Positions 8,831-15,468 of a stretch of 33,394 nt of DNA are shown here, piece by piece. The DNA lies in NCBI GenBank assembly GCA_945906005.1, contig CAMDQY010000003.1:1-33394 (forward strand), in the 5' to 3' direction. A program made the translations under genes and the position numbers. Origin of the DNA: Novosphingobium sp. Chol11 (GTDB lineage: Bacteria > Pseudomonadota > Alphaproteobacteria > Sphingomonadales > Sphingomonadaceae). The first letter of the stretch is position 1; each line of letters opens with the position of its first letter. Below the pieces are notes generated by a model. The model saw only the letters and a program-made list of their open reading frames with translations, was not told where the DNA came from and searched no databases.

Positions 8831-11662
8831 TCAGAACGACACGGTCAGGTCCATGCCGTAAGAACGGGCAGGAATGTAATTGCCGCCAATGAAGATGTTG
8901 CTGATATTGAGCGCGGAGGAGAAGCGCTGCTTGTCGAACAGGTTGCGTGCCCAGACGGCAAGGTCAGCCTTGATGCCGCCCAGGTTCATCTCCTTCAGCG
9001 CGACGCGACCGTTCACAATCCAATATGATTCGGTGTAGAGCACGTCCGGAGCGATCTTGAATATCGCTGCATCCGGGTTGGTGTCCGCCTGGACCTTGTC
9101 GCGGAAGATGGCATCGGTGCGGAGCGACAGATAGGCATCGCCGAACAGCGGCTGCGTGTCATACTGGGCGAACACGGTGCCGGTCCACTTGGGCGTGGTC
9201 AGCCTGCCGTTATAGTTGCCATTGAATGCCGCAATGATTGCAGGGGGAACGCTATTGACCGTGACATGCGTGTAGGCGGCGTTTCCGCCGATCGTCAGCC
9301 CTTCAAAGGGAGCAGCCAAGGTTTCGAACTCGAGACCCCAAGACTCCTTGCCGCCGACGTCGAGCACGAACACACTGATGGAATCGCCGTTGCACGCTGG
9401 GTTCGAGGTTCGCGCGCAAATCTCCTTGAATGTTTCGGGAGCGGTCTGAACGCTGCTCGGTGATTGCAGATGCTTCACGTCGGCCCACCATGCGGTCAGG
9501 TTCTTGCGAAGCTTGTTGTTGAAGAATTCCCCCTTGATGCCCGCTTCGGCCGATTTCACGGTTTCCGGGTCGAATGGCAGGCTCGCTGAGGTTCCGCCCG
9601 ACACATAGGCAGTGGAATACTTGGCATAGAGCAGCACATCAGGGTTCAGCTTGAAGTTCACGCCAAACAGATAATTGAAACGCGTGTCCTTGTAGTTGGA
9701 TTCGGTGAGCGTCAGCGCAGTGGGAATCTTGCCGAACAGGAACGAACCGAACTTCTTGTCTTTGGTGAGACGACCGCCGACTACGACGTCGAGCTTGTCC
9801 GTGAGGTGGAACTCAAGCTGTGCGTATGCCGCTATCGAACGAGCGGCATTGTAATATTCACCGATATCCGATTGGCCGATCACGCCATTCGGAATGAACG
9901 CGAAACTTGTCGTGTTCTTCAGCCAATGTTCCGCGACGTGGTCCTTCGACTTGAACCACATGGCACCAAATGTTCCGGTGAGCAGGTCGGATTCGTAGTT
10001 TGCCTGAAGTTCGGCGCTCCACTGTTCCGAACGGCTCTGCGCGCCAGAAACGATGCCGACGAAGGGCTGGCCGACGAGGGGAGCAAAACGCTGCACGAAC
10101 GAGGGGATGGCAGCCTGCGCATCGGCAGGCGTGTTGATGCCGGGCGCGCGACCGATCGACGAGAACGCAATGAAGGTAGCGTAAGGAACGAGCGCCTGCT
10201 GCGTAAACGGCAGGCTCGACATGCCGTCAAGCGGCGAGGTCGCAAAGATGGTGGACTTGCGGTAGCCGAGTATCGACTTGATCGAAAGGTTGTCAGACGC
10301 GACGTAATTGGCCGTAAAGCTGTGCCCCTGGTGTTTCTGTTCGGTCGGAATCGACCAGGCGTTATGCTCGCCATTGGGTCGCTTGCCATTGTCGTCTTCA
10401 TCCACGACACCGTTCGAATCGGCCAGCGCGCCCAGGAAGGAGCCAAGCAGCGGCACCGAGCGGTTCAGCGTGACCAGCGAAACCGCCTCCGGCGTGTTCA
10501 GCGCATCGCCGCGGTCATATTTGTAAACAGCGCTGAAATCGCCCGATTCAAACTTGAGTGCGGCAAAGTACGTATCGACGTCCTTCGCGCCGAGGGTCTT
10601 TACCGATTTCGCGTTTCTGGCGACCGGCGCGTAGTTTGAGGCCAGCCGGTTCCATACCACGGGCGCGCCAAGGTTGTTGATGTCGCCGTCGCGCTGCTCA
10701 TGGACATAGCTGAAATAGGCGCTGAACGGCCCGATTTGCGGCGTATGGGCCGAAAGCCGCCAGCGCCAGTGATCCTGGTTGCCCATTGTCAGGCTGGCCT
10801 TCACACTGGCTTCGCCGGTCGGATCACTGGTCATGATGCTGACCGCTCCGGTCGTGGCATTGCGCCCGAAAAGGGTGCCCTGCGGCCCGCGCAGGACCTC
10901 AATTCGCGACACATCGGGCAGATCGAAGATGTAGCGCCCGCCATTGGCGCTGATGGTCTGGCCGGTGATATAGCTGGCATCCTCGCTCGCAAGGAACAGG
11001 CAGGCAGCGGCGATTTCCTCTGGGCGGCCGATCCTCTTCATCGGCAGGAAGTTTTTCATCGCCTCGATGTCCATCGGCGCGGCGCGCAGCGCGGGCGTAT
11101 CGACGATACCGGGCGGCACCATGTTGAAGGTAACGCCGCTCGGCGCATATTCGTTTGCCAGAGCCTTGGTGAGGCCCAGCACGCCGCCCTTTGAGGCGAC
11201 ATAATGCGCCTGCGATGGCGATCCGTTCTGCACCGAGGAGGAGGTGATGTTGACCACGCGGCCCCACCCGGCCTCCAGCATGGCGGGCAGCATCTCGCGG
11301 ATGCACAGGTGCGGACCTTTCAGGTTGATCCGCATCATCATTTCCCACTGCTCGTCGGTGATCTCGAAATAGGGGACGAAGGGCGCGATCCCGGCATTGT
11401 TGACGAGGATCTGGATTTCGCCGAACGCTTCGCGGGTGTGCCCGGCGGCAGCGGCAATGGCAGCCGCATCGGCGCAATCCGCTTCGATAGCGATCGCCGT
11501 ATTGCCCGCAGCGGTGATCGTCGCCACCGTCTCGCGAACGCCCGCGCCGTTGATGTCCCATGCGCCGACGCTTGCGCCTTCACGTGCGAAGCGCTCGGCA
11601 ATGGCCCGCCCGATGCCCGAACCCGCGCCGGTTACGACCGCAACCTTGCCTGCAAGCTGCAC
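8831..11662 (-). CDS. in-frame fusion: SDR oxidoreductase + truncated TonB-dependent receptor
   Basis: SDR motifs [35 protein letters not shown], then [36 protein letters not shown] (mid-plug of TBDR) and full barrel ending in F. GTG 11662 with AGGAGA upstream fits as start; the ORF track uses 11743. Confidence 0.88.
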
Positions 11663-11806
11663 CTTGTTCTCCTGATCCCAACGACTGTCACCGGTAATAG
11701 CAATGCCGCTCGTTGTCGTCCGCACAAGGCGCAGCAGTATCATGGGAGCGATGGCTGGCCTTGCCGGACTCGACCTTGCAGCTTAGACCTTGCAACAGGA
11801 CGGGAG

Positions 11807-12604
11807 ATGACAAAGGCGATGAAGCACCAGGGCAGGGTTGCCATCATAACCGGCGCGGGTTCGGGCATCGGTCGGGCAACGGCGTTCGCTCTCGCACGCG
11901 ACAATGTCGCGATTGTTGCGGTCGGCCGCAGGGTCGAACCTCTCGAACAATTGCGCAACGATCTTGCCGACACGGTGCCGGTGGCTGTCGTGGCTGCCGA
12001 CGTGACCGACGACGATGCGCCTTCGCGCGCGGCCCAGACCGCCATCACCGACTTCGGTAGGCTCGACTATCTCGTCAACAATGCCGGCATGGGCAAACCG
12101 GCCCCGGTGGACGAAACCACCGACGAGGTGCTCGACTTGTTCCTCAACGTACACCTGCGGGCGCCATTCCGGTTCTGCCGCGAGGCATTGGGAGTGATGC
12201 AGGACGGCGGCGCAATCGTGAATATGGCCTCCAGCTTCGCGATGATCGGCGGCATGCGCGGCGGCGCCTATTCGGCTGCCAAGGGCGGGATTGTCGCCCT
12301 GACCAAGCACATGGCCGCACAATACGGGCAGCGCGGCATACGCACCAACGCCATCGCGCCGGGTGTGCTCGAAACCGACATGACCGCCTATGCCTGGAAC
12401 GCGCATGTCTTCCGGCGAATGAACATGGACATGACCCCGTTGAACCGCACCGGAACGGGAGAGGACGCCGCTGCGGCGATCCGTTTCCTGCTGTCCGACG
12501 AGGCGCGCTTCATCACCGGGCAGATACTGGCTATCGACGGCGGTTGGACCACGACCAAGTATCTTGCCGAATCGGTCGTGCTCGCCGGGTCGGATCAAGC
12601 CTGA
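11807..12604 (+). CDS. short-chain dehydrogenase/reductase
   Basis: [56 protein letters not shown] upstream of ATG 11807. Upstream part of the 11204 ORF is antisense to the fusion gene. Confidence 0.92.
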   Translation: MTKAMKHQGRVAIITGAGSGIGRATAFALARDNVAIVAVGRRVEPLEQLRNDLADTVPVAVVAADVTDDDAPSRAAQTAITDFGRLDYLVNNAGMGKPAPVDETTDEVLDLFLNVHLRAPFRFCREALGVMQDGGAIVNMASSFAMIGGMRGGAYSAAKGGIVALTKHMAAQYGQRGIRTNAIAPGVLETDMTAYAWNAHVFRRMNMDMTPLNRTGTGEDAAAAIRFLLSDEARFITGQILAIDGGWTTTKYLAESVVLAGSDQA

Positions 12605-12615
12605 GCCGTGTTGCG

Positions 12616-14244
12616 GTGAACTTGCCGCGCCTGGATATGCTTGGCTGGTCGCTACGCAGTGACGAGGGCTCGGCAAGGCTTTGGCGCGAGCAGGGTTGGT
12701 GGTGTGACGAGACGGCAGGCGATGTGGCACGAAACCTTGCGCGCGACGAGCCGGAGCGGGTTCTGATTGTCGATGGCGATGTGCGTGTAACCGCGTTGCA
12801 GTTGCTTTGCAGTGCCGATGCAATTGCGCAGCAGTTGCTCGCGCGAGGGATCGGGCCGGGCAAGGTGGTCTCGTTCATGCTGCCAAACTGGCACGAAGCG
12901 GCTGCGATCTATCTCGCGGCCACGCTAGCAGGTGCGGTCGCCCATCCGATCGTGCCGCAGCTTCGCGACAGCGAGGTCGCCTTCATGCTGGCCGACAGTG
13001 GCAGCCGCGTGCTGTTCGTGCCTGCAGAATTCCGGGGCTTCGATTATCGCGCAATGATGGTGCGAGTGAACGCCGGACTTTCCCGGTCTGTCGAAACCGT
13101 GGTGCTGCGCGGAGATCCGGGCGAACATGCACCGTTTTCCGCGCTACTTGAACCCGTCGCCCAGACTGCGCCGCTGCCACGCGTCGATCCTGACAGCATT
13201 AAGATGCTGATGTACACTTCAGGCACGACCGGGCGACCCAAGGGAGTGCTGCACAGCCACAATTCGCTCCATGCGCTGATCCGGCAGATCGAGCGGAACT
13301 GGCACGTCTCTCCCGGCGACCGCTTCATCGTCCCATCGCCGATCAGCCATATCGGCGGCTCGATCTATGCCTTTGAAATGCCGCTTCTGTGCGACACCTC
13401 TGCGGTGCTTCAAGAGCATTGGGAGGCCCCTGCCGCAGTCGCCTTGATCGACACTGAGCATTGCACCCACATGGCGGGCGCGACGCCGTTTCTCGATGGC
13501 CTGCTGGGTGCAGCGCAAGAGTCCGGAACGCGGCTGCCCAGCCTCAAGGTATTCATTTGCGGCGGAGCTTCGGTCCCGCCCGCGCTGGTCCGGCGGGCAC
13601 AAGCCAGCTTTGCGAAGGCAGCAGTTAGCCGTGTCTACGGCTCGACCGAGGTGCCAGTGCTGACAGTCGGTGCGCTAGAACCGGGCGAGGAGAACAAGGC
13701 CGCTGAGACCGATGGCCGGATCGGCATTGCCGAGGTCCGGCTTGTCGATGGCGAAGTGACCGCGCGCGGTGCGCAGATGCTGCGCGGTTATCTCCATGCC
13801 GAGGACGAGACGCAGGCATTCACCCCGGACGGTTTCTTCCGCATGGCCGATCTCGCCCGCGAGGAGCCGGGCGGCTATCTCGTCGTCACCGGCCGGGCCA
13901 AGGACATCATCATCAGGAACGGCGAGAACATTGCGCCCAAGGAGATCGAGGATATTCTGCTCGATCATCCTGCAATCGCCGACATTGCGATTGTCGGCCT
14001 GCCCGATGCCCGAACCGGCGAGCGGGCCTGCGCGGTGATCGTTCCATCGAAGGGTGCCGCGCCGGATTGTGCCGCTCTGGCCAACTTTCTGGGCGAGCGG
14101 GGCATTGCCAAATTCAAATGGCCCGAGCAGGTCGAACTGCGCAGCGAACTGCCGCGCAATGCCGCGGGCAAGGTGCTCAAGAATGTGCTGCAAGAGCAGT
14201 TCGAGCAAAGTGCGAAAAAGTGGGAACCGGTTTTTCGCAAATAG
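12616..14244 (+). CDS. acyl-CoA ligase, AMP-binding family (cyclohexanecarboxylate-CoA-ligase-like)
   Basis: MYTSGTTGRPKGVLH, GRAKDIIIRNGENIAPKEIE, PRNAAGKVLK motifs; start uncertain (GTG 12616 or ATG 12637). Confidence 0.9.
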   Translation: MNLPRLDMLGWSLRSDEGSARLWREQGWWCDETAGDVARNLARDEPERVLIVDGDVRVTALQLLCSADAIAQQLLARGIGPGKVVSFMLPNWHEAAAIYLAATLAGAVAHPIVPQLRDSEVAFMLADSGSRVLFVPAEFRGFDYRAMMVRVNAGLSRSVETVVLRGDPGEHAPFSALLEPVAQTAPLPRVDPDSIKMLMYTSGTTGRPKGVLHSHNSLHALIRQIERNWHVSPGDRFIVPSPISHIGGSIYAFEMPLLCDTSAVLQEHWEAPAAVALIDTEHCTHMAGATPFLDGLLGAAQESGTRLPSLKVFICGGASVPPALVRRAQASFAKAAVSRVYGSTEVPVLTVGALEPGEENKAAETDGRIGIAEVRLVDGEVTARGAQMLRGYLHAEDETQAFTPDGFFRMADLAREEPGGYLVVTGRAKDIIIRNGENIAPKEIEDILLDHPAIADIAIVGLPDARTGERACAVIVPSKGAAPDCAALANFLGERGIAKFKWPEQVELRSELPRNAAGKVLKNVLQEQFEQSAKKWEPVFRK

Positions 14245-14305
14245 CGATGCGACCACAAATAGATTGAGCGGGCGAAGTGATTCAGATTCCACACAGCCCG
14301 CTCTA
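14211..14305. repeat. composite palindromic element overlapping ligase 3' end
   Basis: TGCGAAAAA-GTGGGAACCGG-TTTTTCGCA (14211-14239) then GAGCGGGC (14266-14273)/GCCCGCTC (14296-14303). Resembles dispersed palindromic repeats recalled from alphaproteobacterial genomes. Confidence 0.65.
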
Positions 14306-14322
14306 GGAGGCGAGACACTGCG

Positions 14323-15468
14323 ATGAATTTCGATTGGACCGAGGAGGAGCAAGCCTTCCGCCAGCACCTGCGCGAATTCATCACGCGGAACGTGCCGCAA
14401 GACTGGGAGCGATTTGCCGAACATGGTCCGGGTTCTGCGGCGCTGACAGAGTTTGCCCGTGAATTTTGCGGCAAGCTCGCCCAGGACGATCTGCTGACCC
14501 CGCACTGGCCGGTCGAGATCGGTGGCCTCGGCCTCGATCCCTGGCACCAGACCATCCTTGCCGAGGAAATGTGGACGACGGGCGAGCCGCGCGGCGGCCA
14601 GTACATGAACGTCAACTGGATTGGCCCGACGCTGATGAAATTCGGCAGCGAGGAGCACAAGGCCCGCTACCTGCCGGGTATCACTTCGGGGCAGTCGCTA
14701 TGGTGCCAGGGCTTTTCCGAGCCGGGCTCGGGCTCCGATCTTGCCTCGTTGCGCACCAAAGCCGAGCCGGTCGGAGAGGTTTACCGCGTCAACGGGCAGA
14801 AGGTCTGGACCAGCTATGCGGGCCTTGCGGAAACCTGCTTCCTGCTGTGCCGCACCGGGGAAGACCGCAAGCGCGGCATCTCGATCCTGCTGGTGCCGAT
14901 GGACACGCCCGGCATTACCGTACGCGATATACCCTCGATCATCGGGCGCGGCGACATCCACGAGGTGTTTTTCGACGATGTCGAGGTGCCGCTTTCGGCC
15001 CGGCTTGGCGAGGAAGGGCAGGCCTGGGATATCATCGCCTATTCGCTCACCAACGAGCGGCTGGGCATTCCGCGCTATGCGCTGGCGCGTGCCGCGCTCG
15101 AACGCTCGGTCTCGATCCTGAGCGAACGCGGCGACTTTGCGGACGATGCCGTGAGGATCGAAGCTGCCTCGGTGGCATCGCTATGCGAGGCGGCCCGCTT
15201 GGCCAGCTATGCGCTCGTCGACCGGCGCGCCAAGGGTGAGACACTCGGCGCCGAGGCATCTTCTGCGCGCTTCGCCACGGTCATGGCAGAGCGGCGCGTT
15301 GCTGAATTCGTCACCGAGCACTTGCCCGAGGCGCTCGCCGATGCGCACCCTTATCTCAAGATGCACCACCAGCGCGGGATCGTTGCCGGAATCGCGGCGG
15401 GAGCGGCTGAAATCCAGCTCAACATCATCGCCAGCGACGTCCTCCAGCTTCCAAGGGAGCCGCGCTGA
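14323..15468 (+). CDS. acyl-CoA dehydrogenase (larger subunit-like)
   Basis: WCQGFSEPGSGSDLASLRTKAE, INERLGIPRYALAR-like region, GAAEIQLNIIASDVLQLP. Confidence 0.93.
   Translation: MNFDWTEEEQAFRQHLREFITRNVPQDWERFAEHGPGSAALTEFAREFCGKLAQDDLLTPHWPVEIGGLGLDPWHQTILAEEMWTTGEPRGGQYMNVNWIGPTLMKFGSEEHKARYLPGITSGQSLWCQGFSEPGSGSDLASLRTKAEPVGEVYRVNGQKVWTSYAGLAETCFLLCRTGEDRKRGISILLVPMDTPGITVRDIPSIIGRGDIHEVFFDDVEVPLSARLGEEGQAWDIIAYSLTNERLGIPRYALARAALERSVSILSERGDFADDAVRIEAASVASLCEAARLASYALVDRRAKGETLGAEASSARFATVMAERRVAEFVTEHLPEALADAHPYLKMHHQRGIVAGIAAGAAEIQLNIIASDVLQLPREPR

Follow-up and report, generated by a model that had tools for sequence, protein, structure and literature searches.

A probable CIR/RIME-type two-hairpin repeat inserted at the 3' end of an acyl-CoA ligase gene of Novosphingobium sp. 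Chol11

Described palindromic repeats and the window element

The Rhizobium intergenic mosaic element RIME1 was reportedly described by Osteras in 1995. It is composed of two large palindromes, with a total size close to that of the element analysed here. In pneumococci, RUP, for which a mobility linked to IS630 (IS630-Spn1) has been proposed, is a 107-bp non-autonomous element with TA ends, and the Rickettsia palindromic elements (RPE) are repeats that keep an open frame inside genes. To our knowledge, there is no agreed mechanism for the movement of RIME (1995) or of CIR (2003).

The Caulobacter CIR (CcrM-associated intergenic repeats; Chen and Shapiro 2003) are about 110 bp long and consist of two arms, each an inverted repeat, joined by a linker; one arm has GANTC in its terminal loop, the termini are TA, and the elements are spread in alphaproteobacteria, where they are reported as strictly intergenic and never intragenic, with stops in all frames (PMC2229807). 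Pneumococcal BOX repeats lie at the very 3' end of a gene and encode its stop codon in 36 cases, in which truncation is not evident (PMC3049150).

The element studied here lies in a window (the whole stretch of DNA analysed, 33,394 nucleotides) of the genome of Novosphingobium sp. Chol11. It is very probably an alphaproteobacterial non-autonomous repeat of the CIR/RIME type, which entered an acyl-CoA ligase gene at its 3' end and gave it a new C-terminus and stop codon. Its anatomy matches that of Caulobacter/Brucella CIR and Rhizobium RIME, CIR being likened by description: a 101-bp core with two hairpins and a linker, and TA ends in the family consensus. As to the GANTC of CIR, the window copy has two GATTC sites; GATTC is also present in the copies L011, L018 and L023, and is absent in most other full-length copies. 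Moreover, the window copy encodes a protein C-terminus, so it is not strictly intergenic. The resemblance to alphaproteobacterial mosaic palindromes that the original prediction had pointed out is borne out by homologous copies on Sinorhizobium meliloti pSymB (best E = 2.3e-7), found by the covariance model R1, which was built solely from copies of the window genome and of the same-genus genome G015. These pSymB copies show the layout TAGAGC-hairpin / hairpin-CTAG of the window family, although the sequence of the second arm differs; unannotated in the record, they are putative RIME1 copies.

BOX offers a precedent for an interspersed repeat supplying a stop codon, but its sequence is unrelated, and the C-terminus preceding the window insertion is visible in a close relative. 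RUP is likewise a short non-autonomous element with TA ends, although of unrelated sequence, and for the window element the IS630 link is a candidate. RPE also add residues to proteins as palindromic repeats, whereas the window element, with an in-frame TAG at 14242-14244, only replaces the C-terminus. An Rfam search gave only a sub-threshold match, to Brucella sRNA CI408 (16 bits vs a gathering score of 398), zero matches reached the gathering threshold in the whole window, and a literature search with the element core sequence gave no relevant match.

Anatomy and insertion at the ligase 3' end

All features of the locus are on the + strand. The inserted sequence (14203..14305) comprises the 101-bp core GAGC...GCTC (14203-14303) and TA (14304-14305), as defined by alignment to the empty site of G015 (L196), which leaves a gap of exactly 103 bp. 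Aligned copies begin with TAGAGC (window 14201) and end with GCTCTA (window 14305); the family consensus has TA at both termini. In the window copy, the left dinucleotide (14201..14202) is TC, which is probably a decayed copy of the TA target duplication, taking into account the alignment of copies and that the length of the reconstructed pre-insertion site equals that of the G015 allele.

Comparison of copies delimits module A (14203..14259), formed by hairpin 1 and the ACNACAAA linker. The inner stem-loop of hairpin 1 (14211..14239), recognised by folding and covariation, has the arms TGCGAAAAA (14211-14219) and TTTTTCGCA (14231-14239), and the alignment and pair counts add an outer stem (14205..14250, consensus GCATCGC/GCGATGC), whose left arm has mutated to GCAAAGT in the window copy, leaving this stem about half decayed. 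Module B (14266..14303) is hairpin 2, evident from sequence, folding and copies, with the arms GAGCGGGC (14266-14273) and GCCCGCTC (14296-14303); its loop contains the two GANTC sites (14279..14289), GATTC at 14279-14283 and GATTC at 14285-14289. The hairpin pair of the window copy folds at -36.3 kcal/mol vs -23.9 +/- 3.1 kcal/mol for shuffles (z = -4.0), and the consensus hairpin 1 reaches z = -5.3. Across 56 copies, 96.9% of cells pair, six pairs vary on both sides, and 27 cells are changed on both sides in a compensatory manner vs 7.9 in shuffles; the orthologous copies L024/L185 have one such compensatory change (A-T vs C-G). These compensatory changes support the hairpin, whose structure is conserved.

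The acyl-CoA ligase gene (12544..14244, putative start) encodes AMP-binding and AMP-binding_C Pfam domains, which stop at residue 543 of 566, ahead of the element-encoded tail. Its ORF ends ...AKKWEPVFRK-TAG within the element, and the C-terminus EQSAKKWEPVFRK together with the stop TAG (14242-14244) occupies 14203..14244, 39 nt of the window copy being ligase codons. The original prediction had placed both hairpins correctly, with AKKWEPVFRK inside hairpin 1, as sequence and translation agree. It had described a 95-bp element from 14211, and its two hairpins stand; the start has moved upstream to about 14203 (GAGC), with the outer stem added and, as a consequence, 13 element-encoded residues.

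In G015, whose flanks are 84% and 87% identical to those of the window, the empty site reads CTGCAAGCGCAG-CTGGGAGGCAACCTGAAGCCATGAATTTC, the ligase C-terminus is QLGGNLKP*, with the TGA overlapping the ATG of the acyl-CoA dehydrogenase. The window junction reads ...GAGCAGTTC-[GAGC...GCTC]-TAGGAGG-12 nt-ATG, so that an exact gain of 103 bp separates both alleles, and a 4-base stop/start overlap in G015 corresponds to a 78-nt spacer in the window. Ligase orthologs, the closest named ones being from Novosphingobium, lack the element-encoded tail even when more distant, and in L052 and L053 the ligase and dehydrogenase genes are adjacent and the element is missing. Thus, gain is the parsimonious direction, and from these comparisons the insertion in the window lineage is derived, with 13 new residues, a new stop codon and the replacement of the overlap by the spacer. 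The replacement of the stop codon had been anticipated from the sequence, and the G015 allele, with its different stop codon and LGGNLKP* end, agrees with it. The proposed donation of the downstream ribosome-binding site does not hold: the GGAGG of the acyl-CoA dehydrogenase (14323..15468; 91% amino acid identity to the G015 ortholog, which begins within the stop codon of the ligase, ATGA) does directly follow the element at 14306..14310, as had been claimed for the end of hairpin 2, but the same motif is found at the same 12-nt spacing in empty-site G015. It is therefore ancestral host sequence, and the element landed just ahead of it. Altogether, the observation behind that prediction is confirmed and its interpretation is largely supported.

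The element very probably entered among the last ligase codons, a few codons ahead of the stop, at a dinucleotide T(A/G), and the entering frame is read as E-H/Q-R/S-A-K-K-W-E-P-V-F-R-E/K, followed by an in-element TAG/TAA. In place of the ancestral tail, LGGNLKP* in the relative, the ligase thereby acquired the 13 element residues and the new stop, while the stop/start overlap became a 78-nt spacer able to form mRNA hairpins. The dehydrogenase kept its own ribosome-binding site, and translational coupling between both genes was presumably lost. Any effect that the insertion might have on mRNA processing or protein function would by default likely be near-neutral, since the catalytic domains end before the tail and stop codons are tolerated by the element (TA + GAGC recreates TAG).

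Elsewhere in the window, a 970-aa ORF (8831-11743, - strand) joins a short-chain dehydrogenase (residues 39-269) to a TonB-dependent receptor (residues 265-935) without most of its plug domain. Relatives match one half or the other, never both, and it may be a genuine fusion, a deletion or an assembly error.

Copies, target sites and stop codons

A BLAST search of the 2.59-Mb, 264-contig genome with a 131-bp query found matches at 41 places, and a covariance model of module A gave 62 matches in the same genome; about 10 copies are full-length, with both modules, and the rest consist of module A alone. Same-genus genomes have from none to 82 matches each, several of them with tens of copies, and in a class-wide sample matches appear in 25 of 289 alphaproteobacterial genomes, belonging to many families. 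Copies with the same two-hairpin layout are also found on Sphingobium and Terrarubrum plasmids.

Some copies show further arrangements. The hairpin 1 loop contains a second, nested palindrome, CCTGAGCTTGTCGAAGG, at L018 4962, L012 2958 and L041 6011, and module A occurs in tandem, twice at L033 3872-3984 and three times at G010 C115 4202-4374. A copy common to two species (L032 4998, L261 7825) is 98% identical between flanks of 81% identity, which suggests constraint or conversion at that site.

Three independent occupied/empty pairs, the window and G015 being one, each display a gain of exactly 103 bp, that is, the 101-bp core and 2 bp (TA in the consensus). In the second pair, G015 C6 is occupied relative to its own C13, whose empty site CTAA is where two convergent stop codons overlap and share bases; at C6, GAGC follows TA on both sides, and both stop codons were thereby recreated as TAG. 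In the third, Sphingobium TomTYG46 is occupied relative to TomTYG73, TomTYG74, TomMM7A and TomTYG64, and the site is the stop codon of a CDS. TA is visible at one of the three empty sites and relatives read TG at the other two; hence, a 2-bp TA duplication is the probable, not proven, outcome of insertion. For module-A-only copies, flanks at empty sites were too diverged to place the right end.

Gene calls from a simple codon-model predictor made for this analysis place the left end of 15 of 46 copies within the stop codon of the upstream gene, and that of 21 of 46 within 6 nt of it; random use of gene-sparing TA sites would give an expected fraction of 0.149 for the stop codon itself (P = 0.002). 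With TA-GAGC/GCTC-TA ends, entry into a TAA or TAG stop regenerates TAG, which is offered as the reason for this bias. Compared with G015, most gene-end insertions leave the protein unaltered because the stop codon is preserved, the last residues being altered at L015 (WLRS* vs WLKQE*) and L036. Among the insertions so compared, only the window copy encodes a long tail; the L012 copy at 2958, which has no ortholog for comparison, may be another tail-adding one.

Origin of the insertion and its meaning

That the C-terminus was extended vertically, or that the palindromes arose by chance, without any mobile element, has a practically negligible probability: no point was found in favour of this reading, which is refuted by the 41-62 copies, the empty site and the tail-less orthologs. 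It could also be considered that selection keeps the element because, as an RNA signal between the cistrons, it directs processing or stabilisation and so sets the ligase:dehydrogenase ratio, with mobility being secondary. Two stable hairpins between cistrons, the compensatory changes and the interspecies copy better conserved than its flanks would fit such a role, which is nevertheless improbable, given that for another shared copy conservation equals that of the flanks (80% vs 80%), the outer stem has decayed in the window copy, copies adjoin many different genes, and the scan of the spacer for promoters and terminators found none at the element.

Insertion of a CIR/RIME-type repeat thus being preferred, its movement was presumably driven by a transposase. 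The small palindromic units, their tandem copies (L033) and the composite arrangement recall REP/RAYT-type palindromes moved by a Y1 tyrosine transposase, a very improbable origin and one largely refuted by the search for Y1_Tnp (PF01797), which was empty in this genome while several control genomes responded; REP insertion is also not known to give such an exact gain of 103 bp with TA ends. A tentative proposal, one that could well be wrong, is that an IS630-family (Tc1/mariner-like) transposase recognises TA-GAGC ends and moves the element as a MITE, in the way suggested for pneumococcal RUP; this would refine the preferred explanation and not exclude it. The element itself starts and ends TA-GAGC, the IS630-family element at C162 of this genome and its Novosphingobium/Sphingobium plasmid relatives start TA-GAGCG followed by a (G/T/A)TTTTC-like sequence, and one clean pair has the target CTAA with a gain of the core + 2 bp. 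However, only 4-5 terminal bases are shared with C162, the element-rich same-genus genomes G001, G010, G015, G016 and G029 have no close homolog of its transposase, and most genomes with a C162-type transposase lack the element. An apparently intact IS630-family element also exists at L263 1-1153 (G000 C34), with the ends (C)TA-GTGGATA / TATCCAC-TA(G); it was rejected as the source of the element ends, its own ends being different (GTGGATA).

The repeat is thus of a known kind, and what the window copy adds is an unusually clear record of insertion. The before/after pairs fix the boundaries at a 101-bp core + 2 bp, and they indicate that an insertion can rewrite a protein C-terminus and break a stop/start overlap, while the ends of the element suggest how entry into stop codons stays harmless. 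The question of mobility becomes, therefore, directly testable in laboratory alphaproteobacteria. More speculatively, and with real doubt on our part, RIME/CIR-type repeats in general could be IS630-type MITEs whose GAGC ends and TA duplication act as a stop-preserving device, TAG being restored on either strand upon entry into TAA or TAG. If true, this would account for their accumulation at gene ends, and occasional off-register insertions would donate a standard C-terminal peptide.
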